In this document: positions 11,798 through 26,326 of the stretch, piece after piece
How the letters are laid out: each line of letters begins with the position of its first letter
How positions within the stretch are numbered: the first letter of the stretch is position 1
NCBI RefSeq assembly: GCF_016634425.1
Contig: NZ_JAEPES010000003.1
Coordinates: 248,001-312,000, forward strand
Direction: 5' to 3'
Length of the DNA stretch: 64,000 nt
DNA from: Lacisediminihabitans changchengi
GTDB lineage: Bacteria; Actinomycetota; Actinomycetes; Actinomycetales; Microbacteriaceae
Translations under genes and position numbers: made by a program
The notes under the pieces: model-generated
The model's input: the letters and a program-made list of their open reading frames with translations, nothing else
The model's database searches: none
Told to the model about the DNA's origin: nothing

Positions 11798-11810
11798 GAG
11801 CGGGCTCTCA
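11795..11810. terminator. Palindrome built from two facing stop codons
   Basis: TGAGAGCGGGCTCTCA is an inverted repeat with 7-bp arms. Its first three bases are the stop of the phosphoesterase gene and its last three the complement of the ApbE stop. As RNA it folds as GAGAG/CTCTC around CGGG or a tighter loop. It is a candidate bidirectional terminator without U-tracts. Confidence 0.45.
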
Positions 11811-12557
11811 GGTGCGAGCGGCCAGAGCGTTTCTCATCCCGGGGGTCATGGACAACTCGCCAGATCTCGTGACGGTGAGGACATCGATGTCCCAGTTCGC
11901 CGTGGCGATGTCCCGGAATGCCTCGCCGCCGGAGAGGATCGCGGTGGCGAGGACGTCTGCCGTGATGATGTCATCCGCTGCTACCGAGACCTGAACGAAG
12001 TCACGGTCAGAATCGGCCTGCGTGCGCCACACGTGCTCGCCTCGCTCCATCACGCCCGAGGTGGCGATGGCGCGACGGGGTTCGCTAAGGGCGACCACAC
12101 AGAGAATCGAGGTGCGGTCGACCGGGTCGACGATGCCGATCTGCCATGCGCCCGAGTCTGGCGTTCCGGCGACCTGAACGTCGCCACCGACATTCAGGCA
12201 CCACCGGTCGAATCCTCGATCGATGAGTTCCACCCCGGCATCGCGGATGGCGATGGCCTTGACGATTCCATCCAGATCGATGACGCCGTCGGGGCGGTGC
12301 GGAGTGAATGCTCCGCCGGTTGCCGATCGCCACTCGAGCGCCCTGTCATAGACAGAGCGCACCGCGGGGCTCGACTGCGTCAACAGTTGTTCGCCGCGGG
12401 CGATGCGGCTCAATTCCGAGTCGTCACGATAGAGCGAGAATGTCTCCTCCAAGCGGTCGAACGCTCCGCGGACAGCGGCCACGTCGCCGGCACCAACCGA
12501 CGCACCCGGCACCTCGATCGACGCGACGGTGCCCATCGTCTCGAGGGTGACGATCAC
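11808..12557 (-). CDS. apbE: FAD:protein FMN transferase (ApbE)
   Basis: 249 residues from a GTG overlapping the stop of the FMN-binding protein gene (GTGA). Family blocks: TMGTVASIEVPG at the N-terminus, FDRLEETFSLYRDDSELSRI, the segment IDLDGIVKAIAI (usual form DLGGIAKG), CLNVGGDVQVAGTP and ATSGVMERGEHV near the end. ApbE moves FMN from FAD onto a Ser/Thr of partner proteins outside the membrane. No signal peptide is visible, as in many actinobacterial members, so the site of action is uncertain. The substrate is almost certainly the product of the preceding gene, which carries the target motif. Confidence 0.85.
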   Translation of the reverse strand: MIVTLETMGTVASIEVPGASVGAGDVAAVRGAFDRLEETFSLYRDDSELSRIARGEQLLTQSSPAVRSVYDRALEWRSATGGAFTPHRPDGVIDLDGIVKAIAIRDAGVELIDRGFDRWCLNVGGDVQVAGTPDSGAWQIGIVDPVDRTSILCVVALSEPRRAIATSGVMERGEHVWRTQADSDRDFVQVSVAADDIITADVLATAILSGGEAFRDIATANWDIDVLTVTRSGELSMTPGMRNALAART

Positions 12558-13054
12558 AGCCCCGCCTTGTCGATCGCGGACTGCACCGAGCTCAGATAGG
12601 CGTCGCTCGTATAGGTTGCTCCGCTCACCGAATCGACCTGTGCGGATTGCGACGAGATCACTTCGGAGCGCAGAGTCGGTGCGGCGCGATTGCTGATCTG
12701 TACGGACCGACCTCCCTGATCGGTGAGGTGCAGTGCCTTGACGTCGGTGATCTTGCCATTGGCGACGACGATCTCCACCTGGACGTTGCCATAGCGCGTC
12801 GACTGTACGGCCCCGGCGAAGGTACCGCTCGATGGATTTGGAGCCGCCGCACTTGGCGAGGGAGACGACGAAGGAACCGGTGAAGCGGATGACGTCGGTG
12901 ACGCGGCGCTCGGCGTTCCCGTCGAGGTCGTGCTCGTCGCCGGGATCGCCGCCTGCGCCGCGAACGTGTGGGCGGCAGCCGATCCGAACTGCCAACCGAT
13001 ACCGAGGATCGCCGCCGAAGCGAAGATGCCTCCCAGAGTTGCTCGTACGCTCAC
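12554..13054 (-). CDS. FMN-binding domain protein, predicted ApbE substrate
   Basis: 166 residues. An N-terminal membrane anchor or signal (about 6-32) leads to a low-complexity Ser/Pro/Thr/Ala linker (about 38-77), then a compact FMN-binding domain. It ends with DSVSGATYTS; SGAT at 144-147 is the ApbE flavinylation motif, so FMN should be linked to Thr147 by a phosphoester bond. It overlaps both neighbours (GTGA at each end), so the three-gene unit is translationally coupled. Expected role: a surface-tethered electron carrier taking electrons from the membrane oxidoreductase encoded upstream. Confidence 0.85.
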   Translation of the reverse strand: MSVRATLGGIFASAAILGIGWQFGSAAAHTFAAQAAIPATSTTSTGTPSAASPTSSASPVPSSSPSPSAAAPNPSSGTFAGAVQSTRYGNVQVEIVVANGKITDVKALHLTDQGGRSVQISNRAAPTLRSEVISSQSAQVDSVSGATYTSDAYLSSVQSAIDKAGL

Positions 13055-14466
13055 CAGTCAAACCTTTCCGTGTGAAGTTGATGCGAGGGGATGCCGCTGC
13101 TCACGGCTTCGGCTTCGACGAGGTCGAGCCAGGCCGTCGGGCCACAGACATAGAGGTCGGACTCGTGTAATTCGGGAAAGATGCTCTTCAGCGTGACGCC
13201 GCGCTGATCGTCCTGCGCGGGCATCCATCCGCGGGAGCCCGTCGAGCGACGACCGACCATCGTGTACACCGTCGCCCCTTTTCGCCGCGCCAGCTCGATG
13301 ACCTCGTCCCAGAGGTAGGTCTCCTCTGTGGTCGATGCTCGGAGCAGGATCGTGGCCTCCCCCGGGCGGATGTCGGAATCTTCGAGGAACGCGCGCACGG
13401 GGGTGATTCCGATTCCAGCCACGGCGATGGCCAGCTTCGGGGCGGTGCGTCCCGCATCCGTGAAGATCCCATACGGACCCTCGAACCAGACCGCGGTCCC
13501 GACGGGAACACGACTGATGGCGTTGCTGCCGGTGCCCAGATTGCGCACGGTGATCCTGGCCGTGGCGTCGCTCGGCAGCGACGACAGGGAGATCGGGTGG
13601 GAATGCCACCAGGTGCGGCCGGTCCAGAATCGCCAGATGAAGAACTGACCTCCAGCCGAATGCAGCGATCGCAGCCGTCGTCCGGACATGTCTATCGAGA
13701 CGACCCCGGGTGCGATCTGCGTGATCGACCGTACGCGCAGCCGATGGCGGATGCTCGAGATGAGCGGCTCTGCGAACCGGAAGGTCGCGATCGAGCCGAA
13801 GGCGATGATGTACAACGCGAGCCAGTAGGCACGCTCGAAGGTGCCACCGGCGAGGATGCCACCGACACTGAGCTGATGCGGCACAGCGACGAGTACAGCG
13901 ATGTAGCTGAGGAGGTGCACGAGGTGCCAGCCCTCGTAACTGAATTTGCGCCTGACAGCGACCAGGGAGGTGATGACCACGGCTATGAGTAGGCCGATGC
14001 CGATGAAGGCGAGTGGCAGATCCGGTATCGCCAGCATGGGGGCGATTTCAGCGATCGGGTTGATGCCCGAGGCCATTCCGTAGCCGATGATCAGCAAGAC
14101 CGCGTGGGCAAGGAGCAGATAGAGAGCTGGCTTGCCGAGCGAGCGGTGCACGGCGATTGCCCGATCGTGGCCTACGGTGCGGTCGATGATCGGGATCCTC
14201 GCCGCCAAGACGATCATCACGAGAATGAAATCGGTACCGATCAGCCCGGCGATGATTCCCACGCTGGTGATGGCATCGCTCACCGTCCCGAATTTTCCGG
14301 CTCCGCCATAGGCGAGGAACAGGGCCAGTGCCGCGGCCGCGGAAGCCCAGAGAGCGGCGACCATCGCATCCGACCGTCGCATCCGTCGGCGATAGTCCCG
14401 CCGGTGGTCGGGAGTGTCCTGCATGGCACGGCTCCCGAGTCGAGGCTCTGGTGTGGTGACGTTCAC
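13051..14466 (-). CDS. Ferric-reductase-like membrane flavocytochrome
   Basis: 471 residues. The N-terminal half has about six membrane helices in the ferric reductase transmembrane arrangement, with paired histidines (HRSLGKPALYLLLAHAVLL and WHLVHLLSYIAVLVAVPHQ) suited to bind haem b. The C-terminal half is a ferredoxin-reductase module: WWHSHPISLSSLPSD for flavin, GPYGIFTD, then AVAGIGITPVRAFLED and LYVCGPTAWLD for NAD(P)H. It moves electrons from NAD(P)H across the membrane. GGAAGGAG precedes the GTG start. With the FMN-binding protein and ApbE it forms an extracytoplasmic electron-transfer unit. Confidence 0.85.
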   Translation of the reverse strand: MNVTTPEPRLGSRAMQDTPDHRRDYRRRMRRSDAMVAALWASAAAALALFLAYGGAGKFGTVSDAITSVGIIAGLIGTDFILVMIVLAARIPIIDRTVGHDRAIAVHRSLGKPALYLLLAHAVLLIIGYGMASGINPIAEIAPMLAIPDLPLAFIGIGLLIAVVITSLVAVRRKFSYEGWHLVHLLSYIAVLVAVPHQLSVGGILAGGTFERAYWLALYIIAFGSIATFRFAEPLISSIRHRLRVRSITQIAPGVVSIDMSGRRLRSLHSAGGQFFIWRFWTGRTWWHSHPISLSSLPSDATARITVRNLGTGSNAISRVPVGTAVWFEGPYGIFTDAGRTAPKLAIAVAGIGITPVRAFLEDSDIRPGEATILLRASTTEETYLWDEVIELARRKGATVYTMVGRRSTGSRGWMPAQDDQRGVTLKSIFPELHESDLYVCGPTAWLDLVEAEAVSSGIPSHQLHTERFDW

Positions 14467-14547
14467 GATCGCTCCTTCCCCACTCAGCTAACGTTCACGA
14501 TTTGATAAGAATCGCGGAGCGTCCTTTGCAGAGACCGTGAAGAGGCC

Positions 14548-14563
14548 CTCTCACGAACGAGAG
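14548..14563 (-). terminator. Small hairpin after the kinase gene
   Basis: CTCTC and GAGAG flank a six-base loop just downstream of the kinase stop. The stem is short and no U-tract follows, so this is a weak terminator candidate separating the two-component pair from the ferric reductase operon. Confidence 0.25.
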
Positions 14564-14566
14564 TTC

Positions 14567-15916
14567 TTACATGTTGGGCAGACGGACCTCGGCGATCAGG
14601 CCCGGATGCGCGTTCGTCAGGGTGACCGTGCCCCCCGCTGCGTCGACGATTGCTTTCACCAGCGCAAGACCAAGACCGGCGCCACCGTCCCCTGTGCGGG
14701 ATGCATCGGCGCGCGAGAAACGGTCGAAGGCGCGAGGGATGAACGGATCCGGCATCCCCGGTCCATCGTCGGCGATCGACAACGCGAGAGTGTCATCGGT
14801 CTGCGTGAGCGTGATCTCGATTGCTCCAGAGTCACCCGCAGCCGCGATTGCGTTCCCGGCCAGGTTGTCGACGATCCGTCCAAAATCGCCGGCCGATATG
14901 GGAAACATCGCTGCGGGCTCACGAGTGACGGCCGAGAACGAGACATCGATGCCCTTCGCCAGCGCGAGTAGTCGCGTCCGGTCCACGCCCTCCATCGCCT
15001 CGGAAACAAGCTCATCCGCGCTGGTCGGCTCGAGTTTAGCCTCCGCCGATTCGGTGCGAGACAGTGCCAAGAGGTTCGACGCAAGCGACGACAACCGATC
15101 GACGGAGCGCTGGGCGGTGACGATCTGCGCCGGGAGCGCTGCCGGATCGGCGAAGTCGCGATGAGCGAGTTCGAGTTGCGTTTTGAGCGCCGCGAGCGGT
15201 GTTCTGAGTTCATGGGCGGCATCCGAGACCATCTGCTTTTCGCGAGTGTTGGATCGCCTGACCCGCTCGAGGAACGCGTTCAAGGTCGCGGCCAGGGCCG
15301 CTATCTCGTCGTTCGCCTCGCCTAACGGGAGGTCGACGGCGCCTTCAGTCGCACTGAGATTCTCGGCCTGCATGCGCATGCGGCTGACAGGACGCAGGGC
15401 AGCGGATGCGAGTAACCATGATGCAGCGCCGAACAGGATCACCAGAGCACCCGCTCCGACGATGAGCCCGTGGTCCAACCGCTCCATGGCGAACTGACTT
15501 GCGGCCTCGCTACGTGCTGCCCATAGCGACCAGGTACCCTCCGGTGTGGTAACCGTCTTGCCCACGAGAACGAAATCCGACCCCTCGCCCGCAGCGACGA
15601 AGTCCTCGTTCCCGCCGAGACGGTGCTCGAGGGTTTCACGGATGTCGTGAGGCATGGTGTCGAGCTCAACTCGGCCTTGGGGGTTTCGGATGTACACCAG
15701 CGAGCCTTTTGCCGAATCGTCGACGAGGCCGTCCGGGTTATTTCGGATCTCTGCCGCAAATGAAGTGAGGTCACCGGCCGCGAGCGACTGATTCGACGAC
15801 ATCAGGATCGAAGAGATCTCCAGCCGAACGACCACGAGAGTCGCCCCGAATAACAGGATCGCGAAGGCCACGCTTCCGAGAGTGATTCGCCACCTGATCG
15901 ACAGTCTTTTGAACAT
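14567..15916 (-). CDS. Sensor histidine kinase with extracytoplasmic domain
   Basis: 449 residues. Helix 1 (about 12-30) and helix 2 (about 151-172) bracket a sensor domain of about 120 residues. A HAMP segment follows (about 175-225), then the phosphoacceptor box MVSDAAHELRTPLAALK with His235, and an ATPase domain with AGNAIAAAGDSG, ADDGPGMPD and GGAGLGLALVKAIVDAAGG. It starts three bases after the regulator stop, so the pair is one operon. Signal is unknown. It lies directly upstream of the ferric reductase operon on the same strand and might control it. Confidence 0.9.
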   Translation of the reverse strand: MFKRLSIRWRITLGSVAFAILLFGATLVVVRLEISSILMSSNQSLAAGDLTSFAAEIRNNPDGLVDDSAKGSLVYIRNPQGRVELDTMPHDIRETLEHRLGGNEDFVAAGEGSDFVLVGKTVTTPEGTWSLWAARSEAASQFAMERLDHGLIVGAGALVILFGAASWLLASAALRPVSRMRMQAENLSATEGAVDLPLGEANDEIAALAATLNAFLERVRRSNTREKQMVSDAAHELRTPLAALKTQLELAHRDFADPAALPAQIVTAQRSVDRLSSLASNLLALSRTESAEAKLEPTSADELVSEAMEGVDRTRLLALAKGIDVSFSAVTREPAAMFPISAGDFGRIVDNLAGNAIAAAGDSGAIEITLTQTDDTLALSIADDGPGMPDPFIPRAFDRFSRADASRTGDGGAGLGLALVKAIVDAAGGTVTLTNAHPGLIAEVRLPNM

Positions 15917-15919
15917 CGG

Positions 15920-16621
15920 TCAGACGCCTTCTCGAGCGCGGAGTTCATAGCCGATGCCGCGAACTGTGCGGATGATGACGTCGGCCGACGTGGATTCGAG
16001 CTTGCGGCGCACGTACTTGATGTACTGATCCACGATCGTCGGATCGATGTTGTTAATGGTTCCCCAGACCTCCTCGAGGATCTCGGCTCGACTCACCGCA
16101 CGGTCGATGTGCACTATCAGGAAGCGGAGTAGGAGAAATTCCTTCGTGCTGAAAGAGATCGAGGCATTTGCGACCGACGCGCGCATAGTTGCCGTATCCA
16201 GCGAAACGTTTCCCGCGACAACCACGATTTTCGGTGCGGCTGAATCCCGTCGAACCAGTGCGCGAACCCTGGCCGCGAATTCTGCGAAGGCGAATGGCTT
16301 GGTGAGGTAGTCATCCGCTCCGGAGTCCAGGCCGAAGACACGATCTTCGATGGCGTCGCGCGCGGTGACGAGAAGCACCGGAAGGGAGTTGCCGTGATTG
16401 CGCAGGTGTCTGCAGACTTCGAAACCGGTCATCTCGGGCATCATCACGTCGATCGTCGCGGCAGCGAATGTCCCGCTCGCGGCGGCCATGAGGGCGTCCA
16501 TTCCGTTGGTGACGACCGTCACCTCGTATCCCTCCGCCCGCAAGCCCTTCGCGACGAGGTCGCTCATCTCGTGGTCGTCCTCGACCACAAGGATGCGTGA
16601 CGTCGAGCTGTTTGCGACCAT
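15920..16621 (-). CDS. OmpR-family response regulator
   Basis: 233 residues starting at ATG 16621, which has AGGGA just upstream; the frame is open for 12 more codons. Receiver: EDD at 14-16, phosphoacceptor Asp58 in TIDVMMPE, and Lys in LTKPFAFAE. The C-terminal winged helix shows FSTKEFLLLRFLIVHIDRAVSR and IVDQYIKYVRRKL plus VIIRTVRGIGYELR. It is encoded with, and should be phosphorylated by, the following kinase. Targets are not shown by the sequence. Confidence 0.9.
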   Translation of the reverse strand: MVANSSTSRILVVEDDHEMSDLVAKGLRAEGYEVTVVTNGMDALMAAASGTFAAATIDVMMPEMTGFEVCRHLRNHGNSLPVLLVTARDAIEDRVFGLDSGADDYLTKPFAFAEFAARVRALVRRDSAAPKIVVVAGNVSLDTATMRASVANASISFSTKEFLLLRFLIVHIDRAVSRAEILEEVWGTINNIDPTIVDQYIKYVRRKLESTSADVIIRTVRGIGYELRAREGV

Positions 16622-16794
16622 AGTCCCTGCAGTTCCGTATGGGGGGTGACACGACACTAGACCATCGTCATGCTCGACTGGCCGTCCGCCCTTTCGTGAA
16701 CCACTGGGTGGGTGGATTCACGAACTGATTGGTCGCGTGTTGTCGCGACGGAAGAGTAGTACACATTCCAGGGTCGAACCGGTCGCTAGGACCC

Positions 16795-18459
16795 CTACGG
16801 TGTGGTGTGAATCGCCTGGTGCACCGATGCGACAGCGCTTGCGCCCTCCCCGACGGCTGCTGCCACCCGCTTCATCGACCCGTGCCTCACGTCTCCCGCG
16901 GCGAACACGTTGGGAGCAGAGGTTTCGAAGGCGAACGGAACGCGCGCTGGTGCGGTCGCGATCTGAAATGCGTCGACATCGAGGTTGACGTCGGTGAGGA
17001 TGAAATTGTTGGAATCGACGGCGATTCCCGTGAGCCATTGTGTAGCGGGAGTTGCGCCGATGAAGCAGAACAGGGCTGCACATTCTTCGCGGTGACTGTG
17101 ACCGGTGACGGTGTTAGTCAACGTCACTTCTTGCAAAGTCTCCCCGCCATCCAACGCCGTAACCTCGGTCGATGGGAGTACCTGAATCCTCGGATGGGAG
17201 ACCAAACGTTCCGCCAGGTAACTAGACATTCCGGCACTTAACTCTGGCCCGCGTATGACGACATCGACACGGCAGTTGCTGTTAGCCAGAAAGAGGGCCG
17301 CCTGGCCAGCAGAATTAGCCCCGCCCACGATGACGACGGGTCTTCCCGCGCACGCCGTGGCCTCCAATTTGGTCGCGCTGAAATAGATTCCCGCTCGTTC
17401 GAACTTCGCCCATCCCGGAATCGGCAGAGTGCTGTATTGGGCTCCAGTCGCGATAATGACAGCTTTGGACGAAATCTCGCTTCCATCTCCGATTCTGAGC
17501 ACGGGGTGCGTGTCACTGGTCATCAGTCCAACTACTTCGGTGGGTGCGTAAATGTGCGCACCGAACTTCAGCGCTTGAACGCAGGCCTTATTGGTCAGGT
17601 CTGTGCCGCTGATCCCATTGGGGAAGCCCAGATAGTTCTCGATTCGCGAACTTGCGGCCGCTTGCCCGCCCGGGCTGACGGTGTCAAGCAGCACAGTCGT
17701 CAGCCCCTCAGACGAGCCGTAGACGGCGGCGGCCATCCCTGCCGGACCGGCTCCGACAATGACGAGGTCGACGCTATTCTCCCCGTGTCTGTAGGACAGC
17801 CCGAGGCGTTCCGCAAGGCGTCTGGGTGTCGCCCGACGGAGCGCTCCGCCGGGAATGAAGACAACGGGAAGCTGATCTCGAGTCACACCGGTGCTCTGCA
17901 TCAGAGCAAGGCCAGCCACCGACTCGCTGTCGAACCAGACGTGTGGCAGATCGAATCGCTCGGCGAACGACCGAAGAGCCAGCGATCCCGAGGACGCAGT
18001 ACTGCCAAGAATTTCCATTGTGTGTGAAGCAAGACCCTTGACCAGCTCTCGACGAGCTTGGAACGCCTCGAGAAGAATCGCGGACAGATCTGCGTCTTCG
18101 GCCATCAGCCTTCTAAATCCGGAGGGCGGGATCCGATAGATATAGCCCGCAACGGCCACCCGAGCGACCAGGTAGGAAAACTGGCCGGTAAGGAGTGTCA
18201 GCTCGCCGAGAAATCTTCCCTGGGTGTGCCGGGTAATGAAGATTTCGGGCGCATGCGCCGTGCTGGCGGAGAAAATGTCGATTGCGCCACGCTCGACCAG
18301 AACCAGGTCTGACACAGGTTCTCCGACCCGGTAGATCAGATCGCCGACGCTGATTGGTTGCCGCACGCCATATCTCCTGATTCGTTCGAGATGGTCGTCG
18401 CTCAACGTCGGATAAGCAGGTGAGCCGCCACTGGCCTCGGCCGAATTGGGTCTCACCAC
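16795..18459 (-). CDS. Cyclic-nucleotide-binding domain / thioredoxin-reductase-like flavoprotein lacking CxxC
   Basis: 554 residues from GTG 18459. Residues ~20-140 form a Crp-like cNMP-binding domain (VGEPVSDLVLVERGAIDIF, GRFLGELTLLTGQ). Residues ~150-215 are a thioredoxin-like segment without a redox pair. The rest is a two-dinucleotide flavoprotein: GAGPAGMAAAVYGSSEG for FAD and VVIVGGANSAGQAALF for NADPH. At the thioredoxin reductase active-site position, CATC is replaced by SATK (361-364), so disulphide chemistry of the classic type is not possible. A regulated NAD(P)H oxidoreductase or a redox/ligand sensor is likelier. The domain order is known in Actinobacteria, but the physiological role is not. 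Confidence 0.8.
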   Translation of the reverse strand: MVRPNSAEASGGSPAYPTLSDDHLERIRRYGVRQPISVGDLIYRVGEPVSDLVLVERGAIDIFSASTAHAPEIFITRHTQGRFLGELTLLTGQFSYLVARVAVAGYIYRIPPSGFRRLMAEDADLSAILLEAFQARRELVKGLASHTMEILGSTASSGSLALRSFAERFDLPHVWFDSESVAGLALMQSTGVTRDQLPVVFIPGGALRRATPRRLAERLGLSYRHGENSVDLVIVGAGPAGMAAAVYGSSEGLTTVLLDTVSPGGQAAASSRIENYLGFPNGISGTDLTNKACVQALKFGAHIYAPTEVVGLMTSDTHPVLRIGDGSEISSKAVIIATGAQYSTLPIPGWAKFERAGIYFSATKLEATACAGRPVVIVGGANSAGQAALFLANSNCRVDVVIRGPELSAGMSSYLAERLVSHPRIQVLPSTEVTALDGGETLQEVTLTNTVTGHSHREECAALFCFIGATPATQWLTGIAVDSNNFILTDVNLDVDAFQIATAPARVPFAFETSAPNVFAAGDVRHGSMKRVAAAVGEGASAVASVHQAIHTTP

Positions 18460-18724
18460 GAGCGATCTCGTCTCACCAGTTCGATGACGCGGCGGAGCAA
18501 GGATGATAGCCAGTGTCGAAGTGAGGGGGCGGGAAGGGGTGCAAAGACGGCCAATCGAGACACAAAAACGGAAAGCGATACCACCCAAAAGATCCCCACC
18601 GTTTGGGGTCCGCAGCTAATGGCTAGGCCGCTTAAAGCACTGCCGCGTGCGATGCGGGAAGGTGTGGATGCGCCTACCCTGTGATGGCCGAGTACAGGCC
18701 ACTGGCTGCCGCGCACGTCGCCCA

Positions 18725-19757: not shown

Positions 19758-22199
19758 TTAGTCGGCTGGCGCTCGGGGAGTGGCTGTGGGAATCCGTGCG
19801 ACTATCCGGGTGCCGCCGTGTGCGGTGCCCTCGATCTCGAGCGTCCCGTTGCTCGCTTCGATGCGGTCTTTCAACCCGGTGAGTCCGGTGCCGCGAGACG
19901 GGTCAGCGCCACCCACGCCGTCATCTTCGATGATGAGGATCAGCTCGTCCCCGTCGCTTGAGAGCACGCACGACACGGTGAGGCGGGTGGCTTGCGCGTG
20001 CTTCACGGCATTGGTGATTGCCTCGGCGACGGTAAAGTATCCGGTCGTTTCGATGATCGCGGGTAATCGAGGGATGTCGAGCTTGAGATCGACCTCACAC
20101 TGCGTGTCGGCCACAAGAGATCGAATTCCGGCAGCGAGTCCGCTCCGCGTGAGCGCTGCGGGCAATATGCCGCGGACAATGTCACGTAATTGACGATTCG
20201 CTTCTTCGGCGCTCGACAATGCCTCGGCGAGGAGTTCGGCGTCGGCGCCGCCGGCAGATCCCATGGCAAGTTTGAGCATGAGGATGGTGTTCACCAAGCC
20301 TTGTTGTGCACCGTCGTGGACGTCTCGCTGCAGCCTTCGCCGGGCTTCATCGGCCGCGGCTATCACTCGTGCACGGGACTGCGTGAGTCCATCTCGATGA
20401 GCAGAGTTGGTGATCGCTGCAGCCAGGAGATCGGCGAAGGGCTTGAGGCGATCCCGTGCGTTCATCCGGCTGGGCGCATCCGAGGAAACCGTGAGAACAC
20501 CCCAGAGTTCACCGTTGACCAGAATCGGGACTTCAGCTCGGTGAGCGCCACGGGTCGCCTGTGGTTTCACCTCGGCCACGACGCGCGGTTCGTCCAACCC
20601 GTTGTGGTATTCGCGGGCTACCGTCGCCGATGAGGCATCGAGAACGCGAGCCGCTTGCTCCACCACCGCTTCCAACACGGCGGGGAGGGGGGACTCTCGT
20701 GCCACAAGCTCAGCGACGTGCCGCAAAGCTGCCTGTTCATCGGCGAGGCGGCGCAGGCTCTCTCGGGCTTCCGCGTTAGCGATCGCCGCCCAGGTCAGCT
20801 TCGCAAAGCCCTCCAACCTGCTTTCGGAGTCGCGCGGAAGGGGGCCAATCTGTGACGTGGCCACGAAAGCACCCCACACGCGGTCCTCGATGAAAACCGG
20901 AACCCCGACGCCAGCGCGGATACCGTATCTGCGCACGATGGCAGCGCTCGGAACGGAGTCAAAATCATCCACCCGCACGGTTGCCTTAGCGTGCGCGATT
21001 CGATCAGACATCGACCCCGGCGGGTGAACTATTCGGGTCCCGGGCGGAACCGAACTCGCGTACGTTGCGACTGCCACCACCGTGTCGGCGCTTTCAAATT
21101 GGAGCAGAGTGACCTCTTGTCCGTTGAGCTGATCGGAGGCCGCTCGACAGATCGCAGCAAGAATGTCGTCCATTGGCCCGGCCCGTGGAACTCCGCGCGC
21201 CGCGAGCTCGGCGATACGTCGCAAGGATGCCTGCTCATCAATAAGCTCACTCAGTTGCTGGCGGTTGGTGATCGCGAGAATTATCCGCCCAGTCACCTCA
21301 CTCAGATCGTTGAGGAACTGAATGGTGTGGGTGGGTAATCCGGGGAGAGTTGTTTCGATGCTCAAAACGCCAAGGGCGTTATGCTGGGCCGTCACAGGAA
21401 ATGCCATTGTCTGGGCCGGACGAACGGATGGCTTACTGATCGACACCACGGGGTTTGTCGCAGAGACCACCACCCCGCCGATGACCGTTAAGGTAGCGTG
21501 CTCTACTCCGCTCAGCATGGAAGCGTACTCCACCAGCCTCGACGACACCTCGGTGATGGACGCCCCGCTGGCATCCCGTTGAATCACGCGCATCGCTTCG
21601 TCATGTTCAGCGACAGTGCGAAGCTGATCTCGGGCCTCGATGCTGTCGAACGAGGCTGTGACCAATTGCGCGAACGCGGAAAGTAGAGCCTCCGTGTCTG
21701 GTGGTAGCTGTTCGACCGATGAGCTGACGAAGAACATCCCCCAGACTCGGCCCTCGACGACGATCGGCACGGCGATAGCTGCGAAAATTCCAAAGCGCGC
21801 GGCCAGTTCGGCATCCGGCTCTCGTCGGTAGTCGTCGACGCGAACCGGCAACCCGGAGCGAAATACGCGGTCCGGTAGGGTGTCGGGTTCGGACACGATG
21901 CGCATCCCAGGCTCTGCTGGTCCGTCGGGAGAAGCCCGCACGAACAGGTCTCGTGGCCCGACGAATTGCGTCAGAGTGATAGGCAACCCATCAACTTGCC
22001 GCGACGCCTCGCGAACGATGATGGCGATGATATCTACGTCAGCGCCCGCGCTACCAATAAGGTTCGCGACGTCGCGCAGAGCGCGTTCTTTCTCGACGAG
22101 CCGCCGGATCTCGGCGCGTTCAGCGTCCGTCACGAACAGAATCGGCTCGGGCTCAGAGTTCTGGGGCTTCGGGGGCACATCCTCCGCTGCGTCCGACAC
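19758..22199 (-). CDS. Multi-GAF sensor histidine kinase (HisKA_3 type)
   Basis: 813 residues from a GTG at 22199 that follows GAGAGG; the frame is open further upstream inside the regulator gene, but this start has the ribosome site. Three GAF-like modules can be seen: two closely related ones with IAVPIVVEGRVWGMFFVSS and VGVPVFIEDRVWGAFVATS, a third ending VPILVNGELWGVLTVSS, and a more divergent module between the first two. The kinase core is EARRRLQRDVHDGAQQGLVNT (phosphoacceptor His in RDVHDGAQ), then ATPase boxes VAEAITNAVKHAQAT, IEDDGVGG and GTGLTGLKDRI. No membrane helices: a cytosolic sensor. It partners the LuxR-type regulator 13 bases upstream. Confidence 0.88.
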   Translation of the reverse strand: MSDAAEDVPPKPQNSEPEPILFVTDAERAEIRRLVEKERALRDVANLIGSAGADVDIIAIIVREASRQVDGLPITLTQFVGPRDLFVRASPDGPAEPGMRIVSEPDTLPDRVFRSGLPVRVDDYRREPDAELAARFGIFAAIAVPIVVEGRVWGMFFVSSSVEQLPPDTEALLSAFAQLVTASFDSIEARDQLRTVAEHDEAMRVIQRDASGASITEVSSRLVEYASMLSGVEHATLTVIGGVVVSATNPVVSISKPSVRPAQTMAFPVTAQHNALGVLSIETTLPGLPTHTIQFLNDLSEVTGRIILAITNRQQLSELIDEQASLRRIAELAARGVPRAGPMDDILAAICRAASDQLNGQEVTLLQFESADTVVAVATYASSVPPGTRIVHPPGSMSDRIAHAKATVRVDDFDSVPSAAIVRRYGIRAGVGVPVFIEDRVWGAFVATSQIGPLPRDSESRLEGFAKLTWAAIANAEARESLRRLADEQAALRHVAELVARESPLPAVLEAVVEQAARVLDASSATVAREYHNGLDEPRVVAEVKPQATRGAHRAEVPILVNGELWGVLTVSSDAPSRMNARDRLKPFADLLAAAITNSAHRDGLTQSRARVIAAADEARRRLQRDVHDGAQQGLVNTILMLKLAMGSAGGADAELLAEALSSAEEANRQLRDIVRGILPAALTRSGLAAGIRSLVADTQCEVDLKLDIPRLPAIIETTGYFTVAEAITNAVKHAQATRLTVSCVLSSDGDELILIIEDDGVGGADPSRGTGLTGLKDRIEASNGTLEIEGTAHGGTRIVARIPTATPRAPAD

Positions 22200-22212
22200 T
22201 GTACCTAACCTC

Positions 22213-22893
22213 TCAGTCTCGCTGAGCGGTGAGGTAACGCAGGACAGCGTGGACGCGTCGATGCTCGCTGCCCTCGGCTGTAATGGACAACTTCCTGAAC
22301 AGGGCGGTGACGTGTTTCTCCACCGCCGCGGTACTGATGTACAGAGCGCGGGCGATGCCCTGATTCGACAAGCCTTCCGCCATGGCGGCAAGGACGGCTC
22401 GTTCCCGTGGTGTCAGAGGCGCAAGAGCATCGGGGACTGACCGTGGTCGAAGCATCCGGGCAACGATCTCAGGATCCAGCGCGCTTCCGCCTCGAGCGAC
22501 TCTCATAACGGCTTCGACGAACTCGTGGATGTCGCCGACTCTCTCTTTAAGTAGGTAGCCGACGCCGTCTGGACGATCGCCAATGAGTTCGATCGCGAAC
22601 TCGGGATCGGCGTGCTGGGTCAGGACGACGACACCCATTTCCGGAAGCCGCTTGCGCAACTCGATTGCCGCGCGAAGCCCATCGTCGTCCCGGTGTGGCG
22701 GCATCTGGATGTCGATCACTGCGACGTTCGGTCCGTGAATGAGCGTTTCGGCCAAAAACTCGACCGCATCGCCAGTTTCCGAAACTACGCGCAGCCCTCC
22801 TTCGGAGAGGACGCGCACCACACCCCTGCGGAAGAGGAGATCGTCTTCCCCGACGGTCACCCGAATCTGCTGGTTGTGGAGGTCGCTGCTCAT
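22213..22893 (-). CDS. NarL/LuxR-family response regulator
   Basis: 226 residues from ATG 22893; the open frame extends upstream into the receiver gene, but that is coding in another frame. Receiver: EDD at 16-18, phosphoacceptor Asp61 in VAVIDIQMP, Lys in LLKERVGD. C-terminal HTH: LTPRERAVLAAMAEGLSNQGIARALYISTAAVEKHVTALFRKLSI. It is the middle gene of a receiver - regulator - kinase operon, four bases after the receiver gene. Confidence 0.9.
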   Translation of the reverse strand: MSSDLHNQQIRVTVGEDDLLFRRGVVRVLSEGGLRVVSETGDAVEFLAETLIHGPNVAVIDIQMPPHRDDDGLRAAIELRKRLPEMGVVVLTQHADPEFAIELIGDRPDGVGYLLKERVGDIHEFVEAVMRVARGGSALDPEIVARMLRPRSVPDALAPLTPRERAVLAAMAEGLSNQGIARALYISTAAVEKHVTALFRKLSITAEGSEHRRVHAVLRYLTAQRD

Positions 22894-22897
22894 GAAA

Positions 22898-23257
22898 CTA
22901 GCGATCCCTGAGGACGGAGTGGAGCAGCGCGCTCGATAGGTCAGTCTTGGGGACGAACGCTGCGGCCCCGGCAGCGGTTGCCTCTTGTGCCGTTGTAGCC
23001 TCACTGTCGGAGGAGACAAGGACAACGCGCATACGCAACGGCGCGTCTGACAGGATCCTGCTGAGTTGGAGACCAGTCCCGTCGGGAAGACCGACGTCGA
23101 CGAGCGCAAAGTCCGATCGTGACGTTGCGACTCTCTGCAATGCTTCAGTCACACTGCCTGCCTCACTGTCGGGCTGATAACCCCACGCAGTGAGCATTCT
23201 CCTCGCTAGCTCGCGAAACCGCTCGTCGTCATCGACAATCAATACCGTTGTCACCAC
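22898..23257 (-). CDS. Stand-alone receiver-domain protein
   Basis: 119 residues that make up one complete receiver domain and nothing else: VDDD at 8-11, phosphoacceptor Asp54 in ALVDVGLPDG, VVLVSSDSE and Lys in VPKTD. No output domain follows. Two successive GTG codons can serve as start, with GGA just upstream. Being first in the operon with a LuxR-type regulator and a multi-GAF kinase, it could be a phosphate sink, a competing acceptor or a phosphorelay intermediate. Confidence 0.85.
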   Translation of the reverse strand: MVTTVLIVDDDERFRELARRMLTAWGYQPDSEAGSVTEALQRVATSRSDFALVDVGLPDGTGLQLSRILSDAPLRMRVVLVSSDSEATTAQEATAAGAAAFVPKTDLSSALLHSVLRDR

Positions 23258-23416
23258 TCCACTATGGTGCGACGAATCGACCTCGCCGACTGTAGGGTTT
23301 GCCGGAAATCGTCGCCGTGAGTGCGCACGGGCTCTTGGTGATGCCTAAAAGGGTCTACATTCCTCCGCCGGATCTTTAGCGTTTATCACGTGGGGTCGAG
23401 TTATGAGGCATCCAGG

Positions 23417-26326
23417 ATGACTGAAGTTGAAACCAGAGACGGCTTGAACACCGCAGTTTCCGGGCCCCGGCTGCACCATCAGCGGCAGCTTGTCGGCCGC
23501 GAGCTGGAATGCCGAGTCGTGGACGAACTCATTCGCTCACTCGTCGGCGGCCAGAGTGGGTCATGCGTGTTCCTGAGCGAGGCCGGAGCCGGAAAGACTC
23601 GGCTTCTGGAATATGCAGCATCGGGCGGGGTCAGGGCGGTGAGCCTCGTGGGCATTGAATCGGAGTCTGGCATCGGATTTGCCGGGCTCCACCGAATCCT
23701 CCTTCCGTTCAGGGAACGGTTTTCTGGCCTGCCAGCGGCGCAAGGGAACGCGCTGCTGGCGACCTTCGGGGCGATGGACCAGGAACAGCCTTCGCGTTTT
23801 CTGGTGGGACTTGCCACCCTGAGCGTGCTTGCCGCCGCCGCACACGAGGCCCCGATCATCTGTCTTATCGATGACGCGCAGTGGCTCGACCAAGAATCAT
23901 TGGATGTGCTGAGTTTCGTGGCGCGGCGCGTCAGCGCAGACAGAGTGGGCATGGTCTTCGCGGGGCGCGAGGACCATGGAGCTCTCGCGGGGCTCAGCGG
24001 CATGCCGACCTACTACCTTCGCGAATTAGATCGGGATGCCTCCCTTGCGCTCCTCGACTCTGCACGACCGGGTGGTCTCAGTTCGCTGGTCGCCGCGCGA
24101 ATCGTCGCCGAAGCCAATGGGAATCCGCTCGCATTGCTCGAGGTGCTTGGACAGCTCACCTCGGAACAACTCGCCGGCCGCCGACCTCTCCCCCACCATC
24201 TGCAGGCAGGTCGAGGACTCAATGCCCGCTACCTGCGCCAACTCGAGGAGCTTCCCCAGGAAACTCGGTCTTTTCTCGTCCTCGCCTCGACGATGTCGAC
24301 CGATGATCCATCTCGGCTCTGGCGCGCAGCCGAGATCCTCGGGCTATCCGAGGAGTCAGCTGACGCCGCAATAGATTCTGGGGTGCTTACCATCGCGGAT
24401 CGGGTCACCTTCCGGCACCCGCTTATTCGCTCGGCTGTCTATGACGCCGCTGAACCCCGTCATCGTCGGTTCGCGCACACTGCGATGGCTGCCATCGCCG
24501 AGCTAGATGACGACCGAGACCTTGCAGCATGGCATCGCGCGGCTGCCATGCTAGCTCCAAATGAAGTCGTGGCCGCTGATCTTGAACGGTCAGCACGACG
24601 AGCAGAAAATCGCGGCGGTCGACTCGCACAGGCCCGATTCCTCGACAGAGCGGCCGAACTCTCTCCCGGGCCCAGGGAACGCGGCGTCCGGTTGCTTGCT
24701 GCCGCTGAAGCGTACCTGGCCGCCGGCGATGGGATCCTGGCTGAAGCCCTCGTGGACAAGGCCGCACCGTGGTTGGAAGACGATACGAGGTCGGTCGATC
24801 TGCAACGAATGCGCGCCTCGATCGCCGTGTTCTTCTTGCGGTACAAGAACGCCCCGGCCCTCTTGCTTGATGCGGTCGCCCACGTCGATAAGGGCAACGT
24901 GGAGCTCATTCGAAGCATTCTTTTCGACGCGTTGCAGGCGGCTCTAGTGGCTCGAGATGACACCCTCGCAGAGACCACCGCAGGAATCGCGAAACGCGTG
25001 CTCACGCTTCCCTTTGACACGAACGCCGACAACGTGGGCCGAGACGTGCTCCTTCAGGCACTGTCAACCCAACTGACCGTTGGGTATGCCTCTGCAGCTC
25101 CGTTGTCGAAGCGGGCTGTCTCAACACTCTTTCGCGAGGATGAACTGCATCCCGCCGTGCTGTCCACCGTGACCCTGGGATGGTTTGCAGCCGACGATCT
25201 CTGGGACGACGCCGGCCGCCACGATATGTTCGAGCGGGCGATCGCTCTCGGGCGCGGGCACGGCGACCTGGGTGCGCTGCGGATCGCGCTGGCCGGCAAA
25301 TGCGTGGGTCAGTGCTGGACGGGAGACATCGAGGGGGCAGAACAAACCTATTCCGAGGCATCCGAAGTTTCCGCGTTGATTGGCGTTCCGCACCCCGCGA
25401 CAGCAGGGGTTCTTCTCGAACTGAGAGCCTGGCAAGGCCGAGAGCAGGAGACCCGTGACACAGCGGCACTGACAGCGGATTGGGGTGCAGAACGAGGCGC
25501 CGGGGTCTTGGAGGTGAATGCCTGTCTGGGCCTCACGGTGTTAGAGATGGGGCTGGGAAAGTACGAGAGCGCGTTCGAGTCGGCGATGCGAATTTATGAT
25601 AATGACCCACCAGGATTCGGCAATCGAATCCTGCCCGAGGTGGTCGAAGCTGGGGCGCGAACCGGACGCACCGACACCGCGCACCGAGCTCTCGAACGCC
25701 TCGCCGATCGGGCGCTCGCCAGCGGCTCTCCGTGGGCACTCGGCGTGTTGGCCCGGTCGCGGGCCGTGTTGGCAGACGACACCGAAGCGCAGTCGTTATA
25801 CGAGGAGGCGATCGGCCTTCTGTCGCAGACGTCCGTAAAAACAGATCTTGCGCGCGCACACCTTGTCTACGGTCAGTGGCTTCGCCGACAGAGACGTCGA
25901 AAGGATGCGCAAGGGCACTTATTCGTCGCGTTCGAAATGTTCGATTCGATGGGTGCCAGCGCGTTCGCGGGTCGGGCGCACAACGAGCTGCGCGCAGCGG
26001 GATACCACCATGTCGACGTGTCGGGCGGACAAGTTGCCTCCGGCCTCACCTCCCAGGAGGCCACGGTCGCCCAGCTTGCGACCGACGGGGCAACCAACTC
26101 CGAAATTGCAACGCAGATGTTCCTGACGACATCGACCGTGGAATATCACCTGAGCAAGATATTCCGAAAGCTGGGTATCACGTCTCGCCGACAGCTGTCG
26201 CTCGCGCTGGCGATGGCAGTCAGAGCGAACGATGGCGGTCAGGCTGCCGGGGTGCCGGCCGAGGGGTCAGCCAGCGATCGCCAGAGGAGAGCAGCCGCGT
26301 ACGTTCGGTACGGGCTCCACAGCTGA
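23417..26326 (+). CDS. Large ATP-binding LuxR-family regulator (LAL type)
   Basis: 969 residues from ATG 23417, with GAGG seven bases ahead; GTG 23390 is an alternative. Order of domains: AAA-type ATPase with Walker A SEAGAGKTRLLEYA (about 54-67) and Walker B APIICLIDDAQWLD, a long helical TPR-like middle, and a C-terminal LuxR HTH (LTSQEATVAQLATDGATNSEIATQMFLTTSTVEYHLSKIF). LAL proteins are ATP-dependent activators, often for catabolic or secondary-metabolite genes; the inducer is unknown. It diverges from the receiver-regulator-kinase operon across ~160 bases, and its last 88 bases overlap the convergent glycosylase gene. Confidence 0.9.
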   Translation: MTEVETRDGLNTAVSGPRLHHQRQLVGRELECRVVDELIRSLVGGQSGSCVFLSEAGAGKTRLLEYAASGGVRAVSLVGIESESGIGFAGLHRILLPFRERFSGLPAAQGNALLATFGAMDQEQPSRFLVGLATLSVLAAAAHEAPIICLIDDAQWLDQESLDVLSFVARRVSADRVGMVFAGREDHGALAGLSGMPTYYLRELDRDASLALLDSARPGGLSSLVAARIVAEANGNPLALLEVLGQLTSEQLAGRRPLPHHLQAGRGLNARYLRQLEELPQETRSFLVLASTMSTDDPSRLWRAAEILGLSEESADAAIDSGVLTIADRVTFRHPLIRSAVYDAAEPRHRRFAHTAMAAIAELDDDRDLAAWHRAAAMLAPNEVVAADLERSARRAENRGGRLAQARFLDRAAELSPGPRERGVRLLAAAEAYLAAGDGILAEALVDKAAPWLEDDTRSVDLQRMRASIAVFFLRYKNAPALLLDAVAHVDKGNVELIRSILFDALQAALVARDDTLAETTAGIAKRVLTLPFDTNADNVGRDVLLQALSTQLTVGYASAAPLSKRAVSTLFREDELHPAVLSTVTLGWFAADDLWDDAGRHDMFERAIALGRGHGDLGALRIALAGKCVGQCWTGDIEGAEQTYSEASEVSALIGVPHPATAGVLLELRAWQGREQETRDTAALTADWGAERGAGVLEVNACLGLTVLEMGLGKYESAFESAMRIYDNDPPGFGNRILPEVVEAGARTGRTDTAHRALERLADRALASGSPWALGVLARSRAVLADDTEAQSLYEEAIGLLSQTSVKTDLARAHLVYGQWLRRQRRRKDAQGHLFVAFEMFDSMGASAFAGRAHNELRAAGYHHVDVSGGQVASGLTSQEATVAQLATDGATNSEIATQMFLTTSTVEYHLSKIFRKLGITSRRQLSLALAMAVRANDGGQAAGVPAEGSASDRQRRAAAYVRYGLHS

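Follow-up and report, generated by a model that had tools for sequence, protein, structure and literature searches.

The thioredoxin reductase (TrxR) fold has been put to several uses among the flavoproteins that stand nearest to the gene product analysed here. In the low-Mr TrxRs it carries an active-site CxxC, and in AhpF it follows one or more thioredoxin-fold modules. To our knowledge, the TrxR-like ferredoxin/flavodoxin-NADP reductases are without CxxC. AhpF has cysteine pairs in both of its parts, as described in the accessible portion of PMC8945050. Fusions of a response-regulator receiver to a TrxR-like domain, the REC-thioredoxin reductase response regulators, appear in the accessible portion of PMC5847659, where they are called 'Mycobacterium-like'; their active site, kinase partner and function are not given in that portion. 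Some RefSeq records bear the name 'cyclic nucleotide-binding domain-containing thioredoxin-disulfide reductase'. In the open literature, we found no functional study of a CRP-like domain joined to a TrxR-like domain, an absence that is weak since subscription journals lie mostly outside that search. The architecture is not treated in the accessible portions of PMC4506424, PMC8945050, PMC2602986, PMC6599016 and PMC10662689.

Here we describe such a gene in a 64,000-nucleotide stretch of the genome of Lacisediminihabitans changchengi, referred to as the window, and the family to which its product belongs.

Domain organization of the gene product

The coding sequence lies at 16795..18459 of the window on the minus strand, as do all of its features given below. 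The frame is open for 554 aa from a GTG start at 18459 to 16795. An in-frame TTG at 18588, upstream of the GTG, is a possible alternative start; the alignment of the close homologue L038 with the gene product begins at residue 13. The gene is under purifying selection, since dN/dS is 0.08 against the 80%-identical homologue from Cryobacterium arcticum, at a dS of 1.8 that is near saturation.

A CRP-like (cNMP_binding) domain occupies residues 38-122 (18094..18348), with E = 4e-9 for Pfam PF00027 and 1.4e-4 for the cyclic-nucleotide domain of SthK. The TrxR-like FAD/NAD(P) reductase domain covers residues 229-549 (16813..17775), as seen from Pfam (Pyr_redox_2 at residues 231-539, E = 6e-37), TIGR01292, a PDB sequence search and superposition of the AlphaFold2 (AF2) model on 5mh4. 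The thioredoxin-disulfide reductase model TIGR01292 is the best NCBIfam match, at 206.3 bits, below its cut-off of 343.45. Ordinary TrxRs ranked first in the PDB search, and none of the best 60 PDB matches listed has the CRP-like/glutaredoxin-like/TrxR-like architecture. Thus Pfam, the open frame and the alignment confirm a CRP-like domain followed by a TrxR-like domain with SATK for CATC, as the first-pass annotation had it. That description of the domains was right about both but overlooked a glutaredoxin-like module between them, at about residues 147-220.

The module spans residues 147-220 (17800..18021). A profile built on this segment from 35 family members finds the glutaredoxin Rv3198.1 (2lqo) at E = 9e-10 and the thioredoxin-like 3zit at E = 2e-5. 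AF2 gives the module a strand-helix-strand-helix-strand-strand-helix core with a pLDDT of 91.9, for which Foldseek returns glutaredoxins, NrdH-redoxins and glutathione S-transferase N-domains (best E 2.6e-3, none below 1e-3). In Pfam, 8 of the 35 member segments match PF00462 at E up to 1, and the window protein's own segment has no Pfam match. The segment is a glutaredoxin fold without its cysteine pair: S156-S157-G158-S159 (17983..17994) is aligned on the CxxC of 2lqo and is neither CxxC nor CxxS. Across the family, two of the 69 members have cysteine at the first of the four positions and eight at the last, and no member has it at both.

The full AF2 model has a pLDDT of 87.7. It superposes on the flavin-reducing form of Lactococcus lactis TrxR, 5mh4, with Z = 37.6 and an rmsd of 1.8 Å over 301 residues, compared with 7.0 Å over 300 residues for the flavin-oxidising 5mjk. 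The flavin-reducing conformer is what might be expected of an enzyme with no disulfide to swing in, a weak indication because AlphaFold may choose either conformer.

A cysteine-free family of TrxR-like proteins

Of the 70 loci from the genome-contig scan, 46 belong to the family, and a search of 60 relatives and six plasmid stretches yielded further ones. The division into family members (69) and ordinary TrxRs (37) was made at a BLAST score of 150 bits against the window protein; this split was set with the motifs already in view, and the tree reproduces it for the nine TrxRs that it contains. The 69 include a second copy in one locus (L070b) and six plasmid copies, and leave out a partial sequence (L106), stretches of the window's own genome (L001, L002 and L004-L008) and L039, a duplicate of L010. 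The genome's own trxB (L003) is counted among the 37.

In a quick maximum-likelihood tree, with long branches flagged among the TrxRs, all 69 members are parted by one branch (SH-aLRT 100) from the TrxRs, of which 9 of 37 were included. Within the family, the window protein and L038 form a group with a support of 100, joined by four more actinobacterial CRP-like proteins at 99. Matches at E up to 1e-50 occur in 21 of 100 sampled genomes of the phylum, the window's own included, with up to six per genome, in two of the 100. Among the 60 relatives, 17 (own included) have a family member, judged by reading of the matches above about 220 bits. Near home the gene is patchy, since only 1 of 12 other genomes of the same genus has a member, and that one is of the receiver type described below.

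In one alignment, both active-site columns hold cysteine in all 37 ordinary TrxRs, whereas each of the 69 unique family members has some other residue in both columns. The redox cysteine pair is therefore gone, as first reported, and not from this protein only. SATK itself (residues 361-364, 17368..17379, in place of CATC) is not conserved: only one of the 69 members has S361 and two have K364, so that the rule is 'no cysteine pair' and not 'SATK'. The first active-site position is Gly in 40 members, Ala in 11, Trp in 10, Phe in 6, and Ser and Asn in one each. The loop is one residue longer than that of TrxR, and one member, L069, has a cysteine at its second residue. Around the loop, the column of the TrxR aspartate (Asp in 37/37) has E366 in 64 of the 69 members, and Y360 is conserved in 65, which argues that the flavin pocket is maintained.

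The earlier statement that FAD and NADPH motifs are kept applies to the glycines of both nucleotide sites. In the FAD motif GAGPAG (236-241, 17737..17754), the NAD(P) motif GGANSA (379-384, 17308..17325) and the FAD motif GD (522-523, 16891..16896), the residues G238, G241, G379, N382, S383, A384, G522 and D523 are present in 69 of 69, and G236 in 68, the exception being a plasmid copy (L110) with Val. The window protein thus has the TrxR fold with both the FAD and the NAD(P) glycine motifs, including GGxNSA. The statement fails for the NADPH signature HRRxxxR, a position that we take to be the NADPH 2'-phosphate site. There the window protein reads IRG...MSSYL (402-415, 17215..17256, in place of HRRxxxRA), and His is found in 0 of 69 members and the last Arg in 3, compared with 26 and 30 of the 37 TrxRs. 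Instead the family has a signature of its own, R403 (68/69) followed by MSxYL (M411, S412, Y414 and L415 in 69/69). Because HRRxxxR is replaced, NADH and NADPH are both possible as the donor.

On balance, we lean towards reading the window protein as an oxidoreductase that uses FAD and NAD(P)H and belongs to a distinct, cysteine-free TrxR-like family. It would act as the output part of a signalling module and pass electrons to a non-disulfide acceptor. In the proposed mechanism, FAD would be reduced by NAD(P)H, as in TrxR. Since both dithiol relays, in the reductase and in the glutaredoxin-like module, are gone, electrons would leave FADH2 directly for a small molecule or a partner protein. 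Activity or docking would be set by the N-terminal CRP-like domain in the window protein, and in other lineages by a receiver phosphorylated by a CRP-like histidine kinase. The domains, the loss of the cysteines, the single clade, the exchange of input domains and the adjacency of the kinase are observed; catalysis, gating and the direction of control we infer.

Signal input and kinase pairing

By profile sorting, the N-terminal input domain among the 69 is CRP-like in 28, a receiver in 34, other or unclear in 1 and absent in 6, of which two (L074 and L079) start at locus edges and may be truncated. These labels cluster on the tree, with 6 changes against a shuffled mean of 36 when TrxR is counted as a group. 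Neither the CRP-like nor the receiver group is set apart by a single branch (2 and 4 changes).

A gene for a CRP-like histidine kinase, all from one gene cluster, adjoins the reductase gene in 21 of the 22 receiver-type loci of the genome-contig scan. At the 22nd (L054) the ORF filter had missed it, and the same kinase is found there on reading. All 22 kinases match cNMP_binding and HATPase_c at E up to 0.01, the cNMP match of the L075 kinase lying just below the Pfam cut-off, and all have the histidine box HE[LI]NNP. The phospho-site residues of the receiver are intact in 26 of 34 members, including all 22 that are paired with a kinase. The degenerate receivers form one clade of eight, so phosphorylation cannot be the rule for all 34 receiver-type members. 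In the CRP-like branch, none of the 16 loci of the scan is in the kinase cluster, and no kinase is conserved among them.

A CRP-like input thus seems to reach the same reductase in two ways, from a domain of its own chain or from a separate kinase by way of a receiver. Since all 22 flanked receiver-type loci have the adjacent kinase, the flavoenzyme looks like a signalling output, judging from gene order and fusion. The suggestion that the enzyme is tied to a signal input is borne out at the level of the family, by the CRP-like or receiver domain and by kinase adjacency in 22 of 22. If the pairing is functional, this would be a two-component system that acts directly on redox metabolism instead of on genes.

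The signal might also run the other way. The protein could be a redox sensor without turnover, with its FAD responding to the balance between NAD(P)H and NAD(P) and a partner receiving the change; the CRP-like or receiver domain would then serve as a second input or for docking. Such a sensor would keep the cofactor motifs, lose the known electron exit route and be fused to signalling domains, all of which is seen. However, the pairs of receiver and kinase imply signal flow towards the flavoprotein, and the conservation of E366 and of aromatic residues at the old active site seems to go beyond what a sensor needs. We regard this reading as unlikely.

A CRP-like domain with a broken cyclic nucleotide site

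What, then, does the CRP-like domain bind? The first suggestion was a nucleotide-gated enzyme, one in which the domain binds cAMP or cGMP and switches the oxidoreductase. The CRP-like fold and the acidic residue of the phosphate-binding cassette, kept in all 28 CRP-like members (Glu in 25, Asp in 3), would fit this. However, in the alignment to SthK the cassette Arg and Ser/Thr occur together in 0 of 28; the window protein has S95-Y96 in their place (18172..18177), and Arg alone is found once (L108). The CRP-like domains of the kinases also lack the pair (0 of 20 aligned); the unaligned L073 kinase, by eye, has the Glu and the Arg with Leu for Ser/Thr. Furthermore, a search confined to class III cyclases (Guanylate_cyc) gave no match in the window's genome, with 5 of 14 control genomes positive. 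A cyclic nucleotide as the ligand is therefore not supported, gating by cAMP or cGMP is very unlikely, and a different ligand, or contact with a protein, is more probable as the signal.

Genome context and candidate partners

Around the window's gene are genes for a LysR regulator, a response regulator and kinase, and ferric-reductase-like, FMN-binding and ApbE proteins. This set does not recur at L038, L039, L040 or L108. A conserved partner gene for the CRP-like branch was considered and rejected, as the neighbours differ between loci: SLAC1-type channels in L038 and L040, with an HhH-GPD repair protein after the L038 gene, a LysR gene after that of L039, and a metallo-hydrolase in L108. With gene neighbourhoods that vary among the nearest CRP-like relatives, we name no partner or acceptor. 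A cluster with an FMN reductase adjoins L048, L052, L053 and L055, and lies about 3 kb from the reductase gene in receiver-type L075 (Pfam was run on the L048 protein only).

Several features of these loci were noted in passing. At 11808-16657 of the window, a response regulator, a histidine kinase, a ferric-reductase-like membrane protein, an FMN-binding protein and ApbE stand in a row (Pfam on the last three), possibly a set for regulated extracytoplasmic flavin electron transfer. The region 19758-26326 is rich in signalling genes, by eye a large GAF-like sensor kinase, two response regulators and a LuxR-type ATPase regulator. A conserved small ORF of about 80 aa is present at L054:7321-7569 and in six other Lewinella-group receiver-type loci; the one copy tested has no Pfam match. 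A fusion of an alpha/beta hydrolase to OsmC lies near a receiver-type reductase at L057:7540-8754, in a cluster of five loci. Positions 1-46999 of the window match contig C3 of its genome, starting at 248001 of C3, with 100% identity as judged from three 20-kb stretches compared; with a contamination value of 11.6% for the genome, this looks like redundancy in the assembly and not like a genuine second copy.

Among 108 plasmid records covering at least 80% of the query, six stretches were sampled. Those from Rhodococcus, Nocardia and Streptomyces plasmids (L109, L110 and L113) have the gene order dnaK-grpE-dnaJ-cbpM-clpB-trxA-UBP zinc finger, then the CRP/TrxR-like gene, with DUF1931 next in two of the three. 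This order points to protein-quality-control stress for that branch.

The UBP-type zinc finger was weighed as a partner and is a lead only; it is present in 9 of 69 loci. It was sought by sequence pattern in 62 relatives, the window and the six plasmid stretches, with flanks of 1.5 to 7 kb, shorter at contig ends; there was none in the window, and the UBP gene of its genome lies on the same contig at a distance of about 790 kb. Across 60 genomes, 12 have both UBP and a family member, 5 the family only, 7 UBP only and 36 neither (Fisher p = 1e-4, ignoring kinship). Separately, the UBP-type zinc finger ends long frames in L062, L074, L117, L122, L126, L128, L130, L131, L134 and L136. The long frame of L074 matches a Na+/H+ exchanger, TrkA_N and zf-UBP in Pfam, and the others look exchanger-like by eye.

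Since a CxxC thioredoxin is encoded two genes upstream of the relative in the operons of these Rhodococcus, Nocardia and Streptomyces plasmids, a link to thioredoxin could exist after all. The family might then still reduce disulfides, by way of the single cysteine C370 or of cysteines in a partner. C370 is kept in 52 of 69 members; it is absent from the other 17 and lies 9 residues beyond the first CxxC position. A CxxC occurs only once among the reductase domains, as a CGIC in L070, and it lies near position 478 (numbered as in the window protein), away in sequence from the active-site loop. Furthermore, the genome has elsewhere an ordinary trxB, with CATC and with a thioredoxin gene immediately after it. 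Together with the absence of CxxC from both the reductase and the glutaredoxin-like module, this separate trxB-trxA supports the original view that the protein is not an ordinary thioredoxin reductase, and we consider disulfide reduction through C370 or partner cysteines very unlikely. We also give very little credence to a flavin-linked reductase of the ordinary kind with a sensor domain that has become idle: 6 of 69 relatives without an N-terminal domain (L074 and L079 possibly cut) and eight degenerate receivers would suit it, but the input domains persist in different phyla and none of the 22 testable loci lacks the kinase.

Beyond a regulated, cysteine-free oxidoreductase in this organism, we put forward a broader and much more tentative idea, which may well not hold: that such proteins form a widespread class of signalling outputs made up of flavoenzymes and not of transcription factors. 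A CRP-like sensor, fused or acting through kinase and receiver, would directly switch NAD(P)H electron flow through the cysteine-free TrxR-like enzyme to an undescribed acceptor, in stress physiology and perhaps with bacterial UBP-type zinc-finger proteins. Some public records say thioredoxin reductase, and none of the 69 has the usual-site cysteines for that reaction. Given matches in 21 of the 100 sampled genomes of the phylum, the question touches many genomes.

Comparison with known systems

With low-Mr TrxB (TIGR01292, 5mh4, 4gcm) the window protein has in common the fold and the FAD and NAD(P) glycine motifs. It differs in having no active-site CxxC, in R403 and MSxYL for HRRxxxR, in its added N-terminal CRP-like and glutaredoxin-like domains and in a score below the TIGR01292 cut-off. 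AhpF (1hyu, 4o5q) resembles it in having thioredoxin-fold module(s) ahead of the TrxR-like domain, whereas the window protein has neither cysteine pair and adds a CRP-like domain. The TrxR-like ferredoxin/flavodoxin-NADP reductase FNR2 (8c16) shares the TrxR fold (Z = 30.4) but scores 107 bits against the family profile, compared with 221 for TrxR, and the 8c16 chain has no sensor domain.

The RefSeq proteins WP_088899720.1 and WP_260640578.1, named 'cyclic nucleotide-binding domain-containing thioredoxin-disulfide reductase', are of the same architecture and clade, at about 42% identity. That name is on 3 of the 30 plasmid matches listed, and FAD-dependent oxidoreductase is on more. The function in the name is overstated, because both copies examined are without CxxC and have AATN and AATL in its place. 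The REC-TrxR fusions of PMC5847659 are probably the receiver branch of this family, to judge from their description in the accessible portion of that paper; relative to them, the window protein has a CRP-like domain instead of a receiver. Already known, then, are the RefSeq naming of some such proteins and, in print (PMC5847659, in the same portion), receiver-TrxR fusions. To this we add that both cysteine pairs are consistently lost, that MSxYL is a signature of the family, that the glutaredoxin module has no active site, that the cyclic-nucleotide site is broken and that a CRP-like kinase is the neighbour in 22 of 22 testable loci.
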